A program made the position numbers and the translations under genes. The notes under the pieces were generated by a model. That model saw nothing but the letters and a program-made list of their open reading frames with translations, ran no database searches and was not told the DNA's origin. Positions 2,970 through 48,427 of a DNA stretch of 50,168 nt are shown here, piece by piece; the first letter of the stretch is position 1; each line of letters begins with the position of its first letter. This DNA is from an uncultured Saprospiraceae bacterium (GTDB lineage Bacteria > Bacteroidota > Bacteroidia > Chitinophagales > Saprospiraceae). The stretch lies in NCBI GenBank assembly GCA_938015805.1, contig CALLXF010000074.1, positions 1-50,168 on the forward strand, read 5' to 3'.

Positions 2970-4255
2970 AAACTTTTAATAATATGATTGCCTATACTAC
3001 ACTGTAGGCAACGATTAGAATCACAATAAGTTTTCTTTAACTGGATGAGACCTTGAGACTGTAAAGCATCTTTAGAAGAGACCTTATTGCTTTTCCATTG
3101 CCTAATGATTTTATTATTCTCTGATTTTAAGCTTTCTAATAATGAGATTGCCCGTTCTTTACTTTTACGATGATTCATTTTTTCTCCATAGAAGTAGAGC
3201 ATAGATACTACAGCATTAATTATGATGGTATTTCTAGCATCTGATCCTAATTTTTTAGGTTGATGATTAGATTCATTATTAAAATGATAGTGATCATCCC
3301 AGAAAGTAGATGCTTTTACATCTAGTAATTTTATTAAATCTTTATTGGAGCTCGACTCCAATAGTAAAGAAAACAAATTATCTTTTTTAAATACAAGATG
3401 GGCAAACTGAGAGATTCTTATTGTTGGAAAAGATATCGGTCTCATCCTTGCAAATTTCCAGATGTCCAAGGATAATGGTTTTAGATCATACTTAGCTCTT
3501 AGGAAAGCGTATTCTCTAATCCACACTTTTACTTTATTATTTTCATGAGAAGAAGGCAGTAAACCACTTTGTCCCATAAGAATCGCTTCTATCTGAGAAA
3601 GGTCATTACTGTGCTTTAATAGTAGAGTAGATGATACTGATCTGGCTAATCGTTCAAAAGCATCAGCATTTACTCTAGCCCCAAAATATCTCGCTAATAG
3701 AATATAAAAACTCTCTCCCCAGTTTCCATCTGTACTTTTAAAAATCCTGTCTAAGTCTATAGTTTTTTGTTCTATCCGCTCGATTGCTGTTTTTTCTATC
3801 ATTCCGTTTACAATGATATCAGGAACGTCAGCAATTTTTGATTGACATGGAATCTCAAGTGTAGAAGATTTAAGCAAAAGGTAATTATCAAAAATATGTT
3901 GAGGGATTTTATCCTTTAATACTAGTGTAGGGATGTTTTTACCTAGGTTTTTAAGTACTTCTTTATCATGATTATAAACTACATGTAGGATCACATTATC
4001 ATATTTAGGATCATCTTGGTGATTATGTTTTAACCAGTCTGATGAACTTAAATGTATTTCTATATTTCCTGCCCAGACGGTATCATCTAGTTTTATTTTA
4101 CCAGAAAAAAAATCTGGTCCGGCATCATGATTATGGATTCCTTTCCGTAAAATCTCTAGCTTATTTCCATCCTTTGTAGCTAGTTTTGTTTTATCAAAAC
4201 ACTGTAGGTTCCAGACATAATGCAGAAAATCTTCGGAGATCTGTGTTACATTCAT
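2966..4255 (-). CDS. DUF2851 family protein
   Basis: A 429-residue soluble protein with no signal peptide. The N-terminal part (residues 8-120) contains the family signature with NHDAGPDFFSGKIK and then WAGNIEIHLSSSDW, as in DUF2851 proteins found across Bacteroidota. The C terminus ends with a cysteine cluster, TYCDSNRCLQCSIG (C-x4-C-x2-C), which looks able to bind a metal or a cluster. No function is established that I can name. It overlaps folA upstream by four bases and lpxK downstream by four bases, so the three are probably one tightly coupled operon segment. The acidic GPDFF region and the conserved His/Asp residues hint at an enzyme, but that is only inference. Confidence 0.85.
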   Translation of the reverse strand: MNVTQISEDFLHYVWNLQCFDKTKLATKDGNKLEILRKGIHNHDAGPDFFSGKIKLDDTVWAGNIEIHLSSSDWLKHNHQDDPKYDNVILHVVYNHDKEVLKNLGKNIPTLVLKDKIPQHIFDNYLLLKSSTLEIPCQSKIADVPDIIVNGMIEKTAIERIEQKTIDLDRIFKSTDGNWGESFYILLARYFGARVNADAFERLARSVSSTLLLKHSNDLSQIEAILMGQSGLLPSSHENNKVKVWIREYAFLRAKYDLKPLSLDIWKFARMRPISFPTIRISQFAHLVFKKDNLFSLLLESSSNKDLIKLLDVKASTFWDDHYHFNNESNHQPKKLGSDARNTIIINAVVSMLYFYGEKMNHRKSKERAISLLESLKSENNKIIRQWKSNKVSSKDALQSQGLIQLKKTYCDSNRCLQCSIGNHIIKSL

Positions 4256-4749
4256 ATCGATTTTTTCTCCCAGATATTAAAGCTATAGTGGTGCTCATTT
4301 TTATCGTCAGGACTATGTTTATCAGAGGATTTTAGAGTCCACTGATTATAGTCAAGTTTGGGAAAATAAATTTCACCGTCTACATCCAGATCTACCTCGG
4401 TGATATATAATCGATCCCATAAATTTGCGGTTTGCTCATATATCATACCACCGCCTATTATAAAAGCTTCTTGTTCTCCATTGGCGTAAGCCAAATTTAA
4501 AGCCTCCTCTATGCTATGGGCGACTAAACAATTAGAAGATAGGAAAAACGGATCTCTGGTAACGATTATATTAGTCCGATTAGGTAGTGGTTTTCCTATG
4601 GACTGGTAGCATTTACGCCCCATAATGATGTGATGACCGCTCGTAATTTTTTTAAAATACTTAAGGTCAGCTGGGAGGTACCATGGTATGTCGTTATCCT
4701 TACCGATAACATTATTTTTAGCTGTGGCTACGATACATGAGATCATCAT
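4252..4749 (-). CDS. folA: Dihydrofolate reductase
   Basis: A 165-residue type I dihydrofolate reductase, which uses NADPH to make tetrahydrofolate for thymidylate, purine and methionine synthesis. The frame begins MMISCIVATAKNNVIGKDND, followed by IPWYLPADLKYFKKIT, where the acidic substrate-binding residue (Asp28 in this numbering) is present. Next come the NADPH-binding GRKCYQSIG block and IIGGGMIYEQ. The C-terminal LYITEVDLDVDGEIYFP strand is also typical. The first Met is at 4749 and a second Met follows directly. It overlaps the DUF2851 gene by four bases and lies 13 bases after PBP2. Folate supply and the downstream metH are metabolically related, although several genes apart. Its position directly after PBP2 takes the place usually held by rodA. 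Confidence 0.95.
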   Translation of the reverse strand: MMISCIVATAKNNVIGKDNDIPWYLPADLKYFKKITSGHHIIMGRKCYQSIGKPLPNRTNIIVTRDPFFLSSNCLVAHSIEEALNLAYANGEQEAFIIGGGMIYEQTANLWDRLYITEVDLDVDGEIYFPKLDYNQWTLKSSDKHSPDDKNEHHYSFNIWEKKSI

Positions 4750-4762
4750 AAGACAGTGTAAT

Positions 4763-6616
4763 TTATGGATTGGATATTAAATCTAATTCTTTCATTCTGT
4801 TTAACAAAGGAAGTCGATACTCTGGAATTTCTGATTTAATATATTTTTCTAATAATAGACTGGCTATAGGAGCTGCTATGTCACCTCCAAATCCTGCATT
4901 TTCTACATATACCGCTATGGCAATCTGAGGATCATCGATCGGTGCAAAGGCAAAGTAAACGGAGTGATCTTTTCCTTGTGGATTTTGTGAGGTCCCTGTT
5001 TTTCCAGCCGAACTGATACCTGGAATTCTTCCAGCCTGTGCAGTTCCTGAGGTAATCACTTTTTGCATCCCATAAAGAACAGGGTCAAAGTGCTGTGGAT
5101 CTATAGAAACTTTATTTTTAATATTAAATTTAGGATCAAATGATGATGTCTCTGGTTTTACAAAATGAGGTATATAGTAATATCCTCTATTAGCTAAAAT
5201 CACAGCAAGATTTGCCATCTGCATCGTGGTTAGTTGTAACTCACCTTGGCCGATACCGAGCGATAAAATATACGAAGCTCTCCAGCCAGACCTTACATAA
5301 TTATACTGCTGATCATAGTGCTCGGGTGTAGGAATAAATCCAGTACTCTCGTGACTATAATCGATACCCAGTTTTTGCCCCAATCCAAATTCCTTGAGAT
5401 AGTCTACTAAGATTTGTAACCCTTTACCAGGATTATTATATCCCTCTTTTTCTATTACTTCTTTTACCAGCTGATAGTAGTAAGAATTACAAGAATGCTG
5501 AATGGCCGTGGATATATTTGTAGGGGTAGGGTGATTATGACACCCTTGACTAAATCCTTTTCTTTTATTAATTACATAGGAGCCATCACATTGTAGTGTT
5601 CTACCAGCATACGTTGTTTTTTCTTGTAATGCGATAAGTGATAGGATCGGTTTAAAAATAGATCCAGGAGGATATTTAGAAACAACTGATCGATTTATTA
5701 GTGGTTTATTAATAATATTTATACTGTCATATCTCAGAGCGTTATAAGCTTTACCTCTACCTCTATCTAGATTAAGTAAATTAGGATCATAGCCCGGAGC
5801 ACTAAGACAGGCAAGTATTTCACCAGTTTTTGGTTCGATCGCGACTATACTGCCTCGCTTGTTTTGCATTAGTTCTTCTCCTAATTTTTGTAAATCTAGA
5901 TCTATCGTCGTATATAAATCTTTACCTGTAACGGCTAAAGAATCTAGAAGACCATCGTTGTAACTCCCTACCTCACGACCGAGGTTATCTTTCATCACAA
6001 AACGGATTCCTTTTTTTCCTCTTAGATCTATATCGTAATATCTTTCCAGACCATTTTGTCCGATAAAATCACCTATATCATAAAGTCCATTAGATTTATT
6101 TATTTTGGAACTATCTGCTTCTCCTAAATATCCGAGAACATGAGCTGCGTTAGTATGAGGGTAGGCACGTACACTTCTTATCATGGGAGTAAACCCTGGA
6201 AACCTAAATAGATGCTCCTGGAATCGAGCAAATATTTCAGGCTTTATCTTAGATAAAAAAGTAAAAGGAGTAGATTTATTAAAACTGGCTTTACGCCAAT
6301 CTTTATTGAGGTATTCTAGAAATTCGTCTTTTGTAATTTCTAGCAGTTCACAAAATAATGTGGTATCCATATCTGGATCCAGTTGATTATAAACGGCATT
6401 AAGATTATAAATTTGAAAGTTATTTACTAGTAGTTTTTCGTTACGATCATATATGAGTCCTCGGCCTGGATATATAACTTGCTGGTCGATCGCCGTACTA
6501 CTTCCACGATCTCTATACTTATCACTAAACAACTGCAACTGAGCTGTTTTACCGATAAGCACAGAGGCCAGTATAGCTATGATACTGATGATGATATGAT
6601 GTCTAGATGTTTTGAT
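4763..6616 (-). CDS. mrdA: Penicillin-binding protein 2 (peptidoglycan transpeptidase), non-canonical start
   Basis: This is the PBP2 transpeptidase of the elongation (rod) complex. It has a dimerisation segment with YPGRGLIYDRNEKLL, the catalytic SxxK in PPGSIFKP, SxN in HSCNSYYYQ and KTG in SAGKTGTSQNP, followed by FAFAPIDDPQIAIAVYVEN. The first canonical start is GTG at 6562, but that would begin inside the membrane anchor. The frame stays open to a TAA at 6626-6628 and encodes KTSRHHIIISIIAILASVL, a classical basic-then-hydrophobic signal anchor, yet it contains no ATG, GTG or TTG. I place the start at ATC (6614-6616), two bases after the mreD stop, giving 617 residues. If the base is misread (ATC for ATG) the same start holds. 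The start is inferred; the product is certain. It ends 13 bases before folA. Confidence 0.9.
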   Translation of the reverse strand: MKTSRHHIIISIIAILASVLIGKTAQLQLFSDKYRDRGSSTAIDQQVIYPGRGLIYDRNEKLLVNNFQIYNLNAVYNQLDPDMDTTLFCELLEITKDEFLEYLNKDWRKASFNKSTPFTFLSKIKPEIFARFQEHLFRFPGFTPMIRSVRAYPHTNAAHVLGYLGEADSSKINKSNGLYDIGDFIGQNGLERYYDIDLRGKKGIRFVMKDNLGREVGSYNDGLLDSLAVTGKDLYTTIDLDLQKLGEELMQNKRGSIVAIEPKTGEILACLSAPGYDPNLLNLDRGRGKAYNALRYDSINIINKPLINRSVVSKYPPGSIFKPILSLIALQEKTTYAGRTLQCDGSYVINKRKGFSQGCHNHPTPTNISTAIQHSCNSYYYQLVKEVIEKEGYNNPGKGLQILVDYLKEFGLGQKLGIDYSHESTGFIPTPEHYDQQYNYVRSGWRASYILSLGIGQGELQLTTMQMANLAVILANRGYYYIPHFVKPETSSFDPKFNIKNKVSIDPQHFDPVLYGMQKVITSGTAQAGRIPGISSAGKTGTSQNPQGKDHSVYFAFAPIDDPQIAIAVYVENAGFGGDIAAPIASLLLEKYIKSEIPEYRLPLLNRMKELDLISNP

Positions 6617-6618
6617 AG

Positions 6619-7137
6619 CTACTGCTTAGGGTTAAAAATCAAAAGGAATAAAAGTATAACAACGTAAGATGAGATAAACGAAAAAATGACGCTTAAAGTT
6701 ATTTCACTAATATAAATAAACGAAAAAGCTTCTATACTAAAATACCATATCAAATGGAGTAAGAGTAAAATAGCAGTATAAGAAGCGATCCAGACTACTC
6801 CCATTTTATATATACTCAGATTATGATCTTTATTATAACCCTCGACTGGTTCCAGTATACGCAGTACATAGGTTCTACAAAACCCAGTAAATAAACAAGC
6901 ACTAGCATGAACACCAGGAGAGTTGTAAAAAAAATCTAAGGTTATTCCTAAGATAAAAGCCAGTAGAATTGTAGTGACTCTTTGTGTTTTTAGAGGTAAG
7001 AAAAGGATAAAAACAGGGTATAGAAAAAAGTGAAAATAGTTTAGGCTTCCGCCAATGTTGATCCTGTTTAAAAGAACAACTTGTACTAAAATGATGAGTA
7101 CAAATCGAAAGATATTTTTAGTAATCATACTACTCAT
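6619..7137 (-). CDS. mreD: Rod shape-determining protein MreD
   Basis: A 172-residue integral membrane protein with about five hydrophobic segments and a short loop carrying SPGVHAS near residue 75. Such small, poorly conserved membrane proteins between mreC and PBP2 are MreD. It acts with MreB, MreC, PBP2 and RodA to direct lateral wall synthesis. The sequence alone is weakly conserved, and the call rests mainly on gene order mreB-mreC-mreD-mrdA plus topology. Its start overlaps the mreC end by eight bases. Its stop is two bases before the inferred start of PBP2, so reinitiation by terminating ribosomes is plausible. Confidence 0.88.
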   Translation of the reverse strand: MSSMITKNIFRFVLIILVQVVLLNRINIGGSLNYFHFFLYPVFILFLPLKTQRVTTILLAFILGITLDFFYNSPGVHASACLFTGFCRTYVLRILEPVEGYNKDHNLSIYKMGVVWIASYTAILLLLHLIWYFSIEAFSFIYISEITLSVIFSFISSYVVILLFLLIFNPKQ

Positions 7138-7945
7138 CTTCCTCGTTCTTAAGTGATAGGAATTCTTCTTTTAACAAGCTTTCTACGATATAAACATTAT
7201 CAATAGAAGAGAAATCACTAAATAAATCTACCTCTATTCTAAATGTTTCTCCACTCGGTTCGATCTTAAAATTATCTATTGTTCCGACGGGTAAGCCTTT
7301 AGGAAAAACGGTAGAATATCCACTAGTGACCACGGTATCTCCAATACTAAAAGAAGCATATTTTTGAATGGCTTTTAGGATCCCGATTTTCTGATTACTT
7401 CCATCCCATTCTAAATACCCATGATGGTTTTGATTTTTTAAGGCAACACTAATTCTGGACTGAGTATGTAAAATAGATACAACACTGGCATAGTGAGGTG
7501 AGACATCTTTTATGATACCTACGATACCTTTATCATCGATGACACCCATTCCTGATTTGAGCCCGTCATTAAATCCTTTACATAAGGTTACAAAGTTATT
7601 TCTCACATTAGTGGTTTTGCCACATATATTAGAACCTATAACTACGTACTGATTACGAGTAGTATCACGATCATTACCATATCGTTTTATATTATTGTTA
7701 ATAATCGTCTGGAGTAACTTAGAATTCTCTTTACGTAAGGCTTCGTTTTCCTTATCTAAGTTCATAAAGTTGAAGATTTGCTGGGATTTTTGAGTGATGT
7801 AACCAGCAAATAAATTAGAACTATTGACGTAAATAGATTTTTGCTTTTGGTTATAGTTTATAATAAAGTAAAAGCAAATAAATTGTAAAAAGACAAAAAG
7901 AAAAAAGGAACCATATTTAACAAGAAAAAGAATTAAATTCTTCAT
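7130..7945 (-). CDS. mreC: Rod shape-determining protein MreC
   Basis: A 271-residue periplasmic scaffold of the elongasome, anchored by an N-terminal membrane helix (about residues 8-30). A coiled-coil stretch rich in Asn/Glu/Lys follows (about residues 63-90, with ENEALRKENSKLLQ), then a beta-rich domain with GLKSGMGVIDDKGIVG and VVSILHTQSRISVAL, which are typical MreC sequences. GDTVVTSGYSTVFPKGLPVG is a further family block. The C terminus is short and acidic (LKNEEDE), as in other Bacteroidota. It lies 14 bases downstream of mreB and overlaps mreD by eight bases. Confidence 0.95.
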   Translation of the reverse strand: MKNLILFLVKYGSFFLFVFLQFICFYFIINYNQKQKSIYVNSSNLFAGYITQKSQQIFNFMNLDKENEALRKENSKLLQTIINNNIKRYGNDRDTTRNQYVVIGSNICGKTTNVRNNFVTLCKGFNDGLKSGMGVIDDKGIVGIIKDVSPHYASVVSILHTQSRISVALKNQNHHGYLEWDGSNQKIGILKAIQKYASFSIGDTVVTSGYSTVFPKGLPVGTIDNFKIEPSGETFRIEVDLFSDFSSIDNVYIVESLLKEEFLSLKNEEDE

Positions 7946-47181: not shown

Positions 47182-47278
47182 AAGGCTTACGCCAATGTTA
47201 GATTTTATTGCATCTAATACAATATTAAAACTATTTTATTAGTTTTATGACTATATTTTTAGTTATAATAAAATCTAT

Positions 47279-48427
47279 ATGCGTTTTGCCTTAGTATATA
47301 TTATCTTTTTTTTGACTCCACTCCTAGTAAAAGGACAAGAAACTTCTGATACGATCTTACCTATCGTACAGAAATATATATCCACAGACCAGTATAACGA
47401 TGCCCTACAATTAATAGAACACTGTACAGATACCATATGTGCATTTGCTAAAGCCGATATCCATTATCGTATGGGCAATTACGCGGAGGCAAAAAATATT
47501 TTTGAAGATCTATCAGAGTGTAATTATCAAAGGCATTCTTGCTCTCGTTATCTAAGTAAAATATATGAGTCAGAAGGAAACATACCAAAAGCCGTAAATC
47601 ATTATTTACATCTGATAAAATCGGATAGCACAAATGCACTTTACCACAGAAAACTAGGAGGTCTCTATCAAAAATCTGGATACACACTAGAGTCTCTTAA
47701 TGCTTATTATAAAGCACGATCTCTAAACCCCAGTGACATTATTACGATCACTGCCTTATCAGAAATGTTATTTAGCCTAGATCAGACTGCAGCTGCCGAT
47801 AGTCTGATTATGATAGGACACCGTTTAGATAGTACTAATATAAACGTGCAACTAATCCGTTCTAGAATCGCCTACAAACTAAAAAAATACCAGGAGGTCA
47901 CTGAGGTACTCTACAAAATAAAAGGTCGTATCGATCTAGACGATTATAGTAATAAGATACTAGGCTTTAGTATGGTAAAAATAGACTCCTTTAATAAAGC
48001 CATTTTTACACTACATAAAGTTTTGCTAAATGATCCAGAGGCAGAGTCTGTACATTATTACCTTGGACTAGCCTACGAAAATACCGAGCAACCTGAATTA
48101 GCCTCTAGCCATTTTAATAGAGCCTTATCTGCCGGCATATCAGCACAGACCTCACTATACCATCGGAAAATTGCTAAACTGGCTTCGGAAAAAAAAGACT
48201 GGCCCACTGCTATAAATCATTATAAGAGATCACTAGATTATAAAAGGAATCCAGAAGTCTTTTTTCTCTTAGCGAGAGCCATGGATACTTATTATAAAGA
48301 TAAATCTGCAAGTGTCAGATATTATAAAAAATACATCAGCTCCGATCACAAAAATGATCAATGGAAAAATTATGCTGTCCAACGTAAAAAACATTTAGAA
48401 GAAATCGCATTTCTCCAAAAGAACTAA
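47279..48427 (+). CDS. Exported TPR-repeat protein
   Basis: A 382-residue protein with a signal peptide (residues 1-18, LLVKG) and a likely cut before Gln19. The rest is made of TPR-like helical repeats (for example MGNYAEAKNIFEDLSE, GNIPKAVNHYLHLIKSD, YTLESLNAYYKARSLNP, FNKAIFTLHKVLLNDPEA, QPELASSHFNRALSAG, KDWPTAINHYKRSLDY). It probably sits in the periplasm or on the outer membrane as a scaffold. It precedes blaI by only nine bases, so it is part of the same operon as a BlaI-M56 signalling pair. Confidence 0.82.
   Translation: MRFALVYIIFFLTPLLVKGQETSDTILPIVQKYISTDQYNDALQLIEHCTDTICAFAKADIHYRMGNYAEAKNIFEDLSECNYQRHSCSRYLSKIYESEGNIPKAVNHYLHLIKSDSTNALYHRKLGGLYQKSGYTLESLNAYYKARSLNPSDIITITALSEMLFSLDQTAAADSLIMIGHRLDSTNINVQLIRSRIAYKLKKYQEVTEVLYKIKGRIDLDDYSNKILGFSMVKIDSFNKAIFTLHKVLLNDPEAESVHYYLGLAYENTEQPELASSHFNRALSAGISAQTSLYHRKIAKLASEKKDWPTAINHYKRSLDYKRNPEVFFLLARAMDTYYKDKSASVRYYKKYISSDHKNDQWKNYAVQRKKHLEEIAFLQKN

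Follow-up and report, generated by a model that had tools for sequence, protein, structure and literature searches.

Organization of the locus

The window analyzed in this work, i.e., the whole stretch of 50,168 nucleotides of contig CALLXF010000074.1, comes from the draft genome (118 contigs; G000 below) of an uncultured Saprospiraceae bacterium. On its minus strand, mreB, mreC, mreD, the gene encoding PBP2 (mrdA), and a gene for dihydrofolate reductase follow one another in this order (Table 1). The product of the fourth gene is PBP2/MrdA, as it passes the TIGR03423 cut-off and carries both the dimerization (PF03717, 128.7 bits) and the transpeptidase (PF00905, 185.6 bits) domains. Inspection of the translation by eye also revealed SIFK, SCN, and KTGT, which we take to be the SxxK, SxN, and KTG motifs of PBP2. 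The assignment of mreD is based on its position between mreC and the PBP2 gene and on a TIGR03426 score lying below the cut-off of 34.85 bits, while a Pfam search of this protein gave no match. The ATG codon of mreD (at 7137) is placed inside the end of mreC, whose stop codon TAG occupies positions 7132-7130 (overlap 7130-7137), and mreC, mreD, and the PBP2 gene may therefore form a coupled chain.

Table 1. Features of the mreC-mreD-PBP2 region (positions within the window).
Feature	Position	Strand	Basis
Dihydrofolate reductase gene, downstream of PBP2	4252..4749	-	PF00186, 202.8 bits
PBP2 gene (mrdA), 617 residues when read from ATC to its stop	4763..6616	-	TIGR03423, 466.4 bits (cut-off 455)
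Hydrophobic membrane anchor of PBP2, residues 7-25	6542..6598	-	hydropathy peaks at residue 7 (2.05 over 19 residues)
GTG, first standard start codon, within the anchor (rejected as start)	6560..6562	-	codon 19 from ATC
ATC, proposed PBP2 start (AUC)	6614..6616	-	ATH + AAA in the same column in 4/4 species of the genus
Two-base spacer CT between the mreD stop and ATC	6617..6618	-	sequence
mreD stop codon TAG, two bases ahead of the proposed PBP2 start	6619..6621	-	sequence
In-frame TAA closing the PBP2 frame upstream	6626..6628	-	sequence
mreD, upstream partner gene, overlapping the mreC end	6619..7137	-	between mreC and PBP2; TIGR03426, 26.2 bits
mreC	7130..7945	-	NF010532, 268.2 bits (cut-off 243); PF04085

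The 5' end of the PBP2 gene

It was claimed in the first-pass annotation that the PBP2 frame is open from the upstream TAA and that neither ATG, GTG, nor TTG occurs ahead of the GTG at 6562. Rereading of the minus strand bore out the coordinates and the frame, and the same absence of standard start codons was found in all four analyzed species of the genus. Following the TAA (6628-6626), the frame reads GCA GTA GCT ATC AAA ACA TCT AGA CAT CAT, and its first standard start codon is the GTG at 6562-6560, i.e., codon 19 when the ATC at 6616-6614 is counted as codon 1. As bare sequence, a run of about 20 AT-rich codons devoid of standard starts is probably not rare; what is unusual is that this run heads a conserved gene.

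The same junction in four species of the genus

For the comparative analysis, the junction of mreD and the PBP2 gene was aligned with those of three congeners (G001, G002, and G003), each represented by a separate genome record. In the tree the four species create one clade (100/100 support), and the PBP2 proteins of the congeners show 70-72% identity to that of G000 (28-30% of residues differ), with G003 compared over only 223 residues, since its gene is cut by a contig end. Within the PBP2 genes, more than half of the third codon positions differ between species pairs. Despite this divergence, codons 1 and 2 occupy the same columns of an ungapped alignment, reading ATC AAA (G000), ATT AAA (G002), ATT AAA (G001), and ATA AAA (G003), and the spacers separating the mreD stop from ATH comprise 2, 2, 4, and 3 bases, respectively. 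The in-frame room upstream of ATH is limited to 3, 3, 11, and 1 codons (in the same order), none of which is ATG, GTG, or TTG. Upstream of the anchor, which all four species retain, standard starts are thus missing in 4 of 4. The lone upstream codon of G003 is itself ATC, which leaves two adjacent AUH codons as candidate starts in this species. Amongst the near-cognate codons listed within codons 1-7, position 1 is the only one common to all four species.

These results agree with the earlier proposal that the ATC located two bases past the mreD TAG is the best start candidate, as the stop-adjacent placement is kept in four of four species. The simple alternative offered at that time, namely a single-base sequencing error that turned ATG into ATC, did not survive the alignment with close relatives. 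Although the genome is a draft of 118 contigs, ATG was found at this codon in none of the four species, and the three others, each in its own genome record, read ATT, ATT, and ATA. We regard a sequencing or assembly error as hardly credible, because four independent errors at one codon would be required. It should be stressed that G is found at only 12-13% of the third positions of the PBP2 genes (three species), and so four non-G third bases alone are no proof of selection against ATG.

Genes in decay may lose their start codon early on, and the absence of a standard start could be read as a sign that PBP2 is no longer made. This explanation has next to no chance of being correct, given an open frame without stops and with 70-72% identity within the genus (the G003 gene being contig-cut), the TIGR03423 score above the cut-off, and the fact that this gene is the sole match to the PBP2 query in G000. 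Moreover, third codon positions were the most variable in all three PBP2 blocks compared; within codons 2-18, the first position came close behind the third (0.55, 0.29, and 0.62 over the three positions).

Another reading places the start of PBP2 downstream, at GTG 6562 or at another codon of the anchor, which would yield a shorter or unanchored enzyme. A standard start codon is indeed present at codon 19 in three of the four species (GTG in G000 and G002, TTG in G001), but the first one of G003 comes only at codon 47, past the anchor. In addition, initiation at codon 19 would leave the protein without its anchor: the top hydropathy mean over 19 residues drops from 2.05 to 0.03 in G000 and amounts to 0.03-0.38 across the four species. 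The relatives compared show a hydrophobic stretch at the anchor position (as judged by eye). Two AUH codons of the anchor (codons 8-9), common to all four species, are possible starts on paper, but the basic residues ahead of the anchor would be lost. Taken with the fact that, in the rows compared, the PBP2 starts of relatives fall within about eight codons either side of the ATH column, we consider a downstream start very unlikely. The nearest row outside the genus is L169 (support 90/92), which reads GTG AAG AGT CGA and whose GTG aligns to the ATH column given a one-residue gap (by eye); it comes from genome G111, the only genome of its own genus in the collection.

The variation of ATC, ATT, and ATA with fixed A and T agrees with pairing of an initiator tRNA at the first two bases, while the third base drifts between C, T, and A. 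The same variation is also expected of a conserved internal isoleucine, as would be the case in an MreD-PBP2 fusion produced by frameshifting or stop codon read-through. Such a fusion is topologically conceivable, as MreD ends in a hydrophobic segment. The distances from the mreD stop to codon 1 (5, 5, 7, and 6 bases, counted with the stop codon itself) would nevertheless demand events that differ between species, i.e., -1, -1, and +1 frameshifts and plain read-through, respectively. No common slippery sequence was noticed when the four junctions were inspected by eye, and none of them folds better than its shuffled counterparts (z from 0.38 to 0.94). We consider the fusion highly improbable, and an internal isoleucine was set aside because no upstream start exists.

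The four junctions share no strong ribosome-binding site, and an A at position -3 is present in two of the four species. In G001 (L008), the sequence AAGGA, resembling a Shine-Dalgarno motif, overlaps the mreD stop right before ATT; it is absent in the other three species.

Judging by sequence alone, the PBP2 gene of this genus would fit the class of genes with non-standard starts, as ATG, GTG, and TTG are missing at its conserved N-terminus and ATH is kept in four of four species with a varying third base. Similarly, the mreD-PBP2 pair, with its 2, 2, 4, and 3 bases, shows the close stop/start geometry of termination-reinitiation pairs, and its translational coupling is predicted.

Start codon usage across the family

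In the next step, the start codons of 136 PBP2 loci were compared (129 of the family and 7 of named near relatives). This set covers 127 of the 149 family genomes with a PBP2 match, together with G002, G003, and the 7 named records, and includes two identical pairs (L022/L041 and L037/L175); one earlier PBP2 locus set had kept 80 of 149. L037 is a named Saprospiraceae record and L175 belongs to genome G161 of the family, and the family was assigned on the ground of this shared PBP2. A standard start was found in range in 131 of the 136 loci, the chosen codons being ATG (77), GTG (34), and TTG (20). The five loci without any were the four congeners described above and L173 of genome G141. In a wider set including other Bacteroidota, the corresponding numbers were 77 ATG, 33 GTG, 20 TTG, and 6 without a start of 136, where one of the six (L108) is a contig cut before the N-terminus that was scored as none.

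Standard starts were present in all counted mreC (49) and mreD (122) genes of the same set, where 49 of 53 mreC hits and 122 of 125 mreD hits were counted (4 and 3, respectively, were dropped because of an edge-cut frame or a poor N-terminal match). ATG was missing from the whole range in 57 of 136 PBP2 loci, 9 of 122 mreD genes, and none of the 49 mreC genes (Fisher p = 8e-11 for PBP2 versus mreD and 8e-10 for PBP2 versus mreC, in tests that ignore relatedness). PBP2 thus lacks ATG far more often than mreC and mreD, which indicates that in this family weak starts are characteristic of PBP2, with the AUH genus as the extreme.

The idea that a weak start is predicted by tight spacing from mreD failed, as non-ATG starts were found in 32 of 82 loci with spacings from -4 to 12 bases versus 19 of 42 beyond. 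In this test, the mreD position was missing in 15 of 139 rows, the 5 start-less rows having none by design, and more than one standard start lay in range in 26 of 139 rows.

The junction of L173 reads TAG ACC CTG AAT AGA CAT, where CTG lies one codon past the mreD TAG. In three of the five G141 congeners, this column of the ungapped alignment is occupied by ATG, TTG, and ATG, while in the remaining two ATG is displaced from the CTG column by one and two codons. The G141 clade is distinct (100/100 support). As G141 is a single draft genome, its CTG could be a separate non-standard start or an error.

A weak start was also observed for infC, the gene encoding IF3: in 21 of the 22 genomes of the order with a match (L120-L123 and L322-L339), TTG is found at the conserved N-terminus. 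The exception is L323 (ATG), and L334 has an open ATG and GTG further upstream as well. Hence infC in this order likewise keeps a weak start, but not AUU.

Gene specificity, IF3, and initiator tRNA

A non-standard start in all four species could also reflect a start selection relaxed genus-wide, through an altered IF3 or initiator tRNA, with PBP2 being one of many affected genes. For this reading, about 225 kb of G000 was compared with 504 kb of G001, with overlapping frames removed and both genomes tested. In only 1 of 34 orthologue pairs, that of PBP2, did the alignment extend six or more residues upstream of the first standard start of both genomes, and the non-standard start looks gene-specific as far as sampled. 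Several further frames had been flagged before this filtering: W_18, W_21, W_81, W_105, and W_109 each lie opposite a longer frame, and just one comparison singled out W_12 and W_39, the latter of which has an ATG at 47279. The twelve codons ahead of this ATG (47243-47278) match G002 (8 of 12 identical) and may be a conserved leader or follow an unseen upstream start.

The IF3 gene is present in all four species of the genus. Amongst the 26 genomes searched (4 without a match), IF3 was aligned in 22, and no peculiarity of the genus was seen by eye in the C-terminal domain, which resembles that of the relatives. The stem pattern of initiator-type tRNA matched once in G000, twice in G001, and not at all in G002 or G003, whose assemblies are 73% and 64% complete. 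With the use of ARAGORN, the G000 match and one of the G001 matches were identified as tRNA-Met with the anticodon CAU, the second G001 match lying in no tRNA. As both IF3 and the initiator-type tRNA-Met look ordinary as far as checked, nothing seen points to a relaxed choice of starts in the genus, and we judge this explanation unlikely.

Proposed mechanism

We therefore favor, as the likely explanation, translation of PBP2 in this genus from an AUH codon 2-4 bases past the mreD stop, begun by ribosomes fresh from termination on mreD. A ribosome finishing MreD would sit beside the AUH codon and restart there; the initiator tRNA would pair with the first two bases, A and U, leaving the third free to drift. 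The weak codon would limit the amount of PBP2 in relation to MreC and MreD, and PBP2 output would depend on mreD translation. Since IF3 discriminates against AUH codons, PBP2 should also respond to the IF3 level.

In vitro, only Watson-Crick pairs were tolerated at the first two bases of the start codon, and yields were extremely low with weak third-base pairs (PMC10158994). For E. coli, initiation at AUU is quoted at about 0.3% of that at AUG (PMC10666635, citing Hecht 2017). These low values count against the proposed mechanism, as such yields would seem very low for a gene of the PBP2 kind. Reinitiation drops steeply with distance: with a 2-nt gap, three E. coli pairs lost 5, 20, and 70% of it, and in E. 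coli and Haloferax reinitiation fades within about 20-40 nt (PMC10666635). Overproduction of IF3 reduces reinitiation in E. coli, less so with a Shine-Dalgarno site (PMC2268962); Bacteroidetes are described as lacking Shine-Dalgarno motifs, and Flavobacterium favors A at -3 (PMC6847099). On this basis, PBP2 is predicted to be low, tied to mreD translation, and sensitive to IF3.

A bolder version of this mechanism, which we consider rather improbable, would extend to the Saprospiraceae as a whole. Just-terminated ribosomes would restart at any AUN next to a stop without a Shine-Dalgarno site, the identity of the start beyond A-U having lost its importance there, and residue 1 of PBP2 might not be formyl-methionine (it could be isoleucine, or the protein might begin with lysine-2 after drop-off of the initiator). 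How much PBP2 is made per MreC and MreD would then be determined by such relaxed restarts.

Comparison with known non-standard starts

Starts of the AUH type have been described for infC, which begins with ATT in E. coli, ATC in Streptomyces, and AUA in S. aureus (PMC5472188, PMC9410913, PMC13009471). The infC start is described there as discriminated against by IF3; its product is IF3 itself, which creates an autoregulatory loop, whereas the product here is a cell-wall transpeptidase. The AUU start of pcnB, the codon also proposed for the PBP2 genes of G001 and G002, is reported as inefficient and limiting, and only one other E. coli gene is said to have AUU besides pcnB (PMC9410913); coupling to an upstream stop is not mentioned for it in the excerpt of that paper.

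A non-standard start kept across a genus, as proposed here for PBP2, is known from sigR of Streptomyces, which has GTC in 32 of 34 cases and GTT in 2, was misannotated, and is repressed by IF3 (PMC5472188). The sigR start is accompanied by a highly conserved, strong ribosome-binding site, whereas the four PBP2 genes share no such site and their proposed starts abut a stop codon. Conserved AUH starts are also found in S. aureus ccpN (AUA) and cvfC1 (AUU), where in poor medium the yield of the tested non-canonical sites was about 10% of that obtained with AUG (PMC13009471). According to the same paper, extended Shine-Dalgarno motifs aid the weak codon in these genes, whereas Bacteroidetes are devoid of such motifs (PMC6847099).

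As for gene arrangement, termination-reinitiation pairs have a stop and a start a few bases apart, as do mreD and PBP2. In PMC10666635, overlaps of 4 or 1 nt are the most frequent layouts of such pairs, whereas mreD and PBP2 are separated by a small gap and the latter has no standard start.

Significance

Starts of the AUH type are themselves known (infC, pcnB, ccpN, and cvfC1), and what appears to be new here is such a candidate start on PBP2, conserved in a genus; no report of a PBP2 with a start of this kind was found in searches of open-licence PubMed Central papers. In practical terms, gene callers limited to ATG, GTG, and TTG would clip the anchor of a core cell-elongation enzyme or miss its start. 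If the proposed mechanism is true, this genus keeps an AUH start that lacks a Shine-Dalgarno site and for which the adjacent termination is the likely helper. It would then offer a natural system for studying start codon choice by reinitiating ribosomes and, likewise, how the level of IF3 could reach cell-wall growth.
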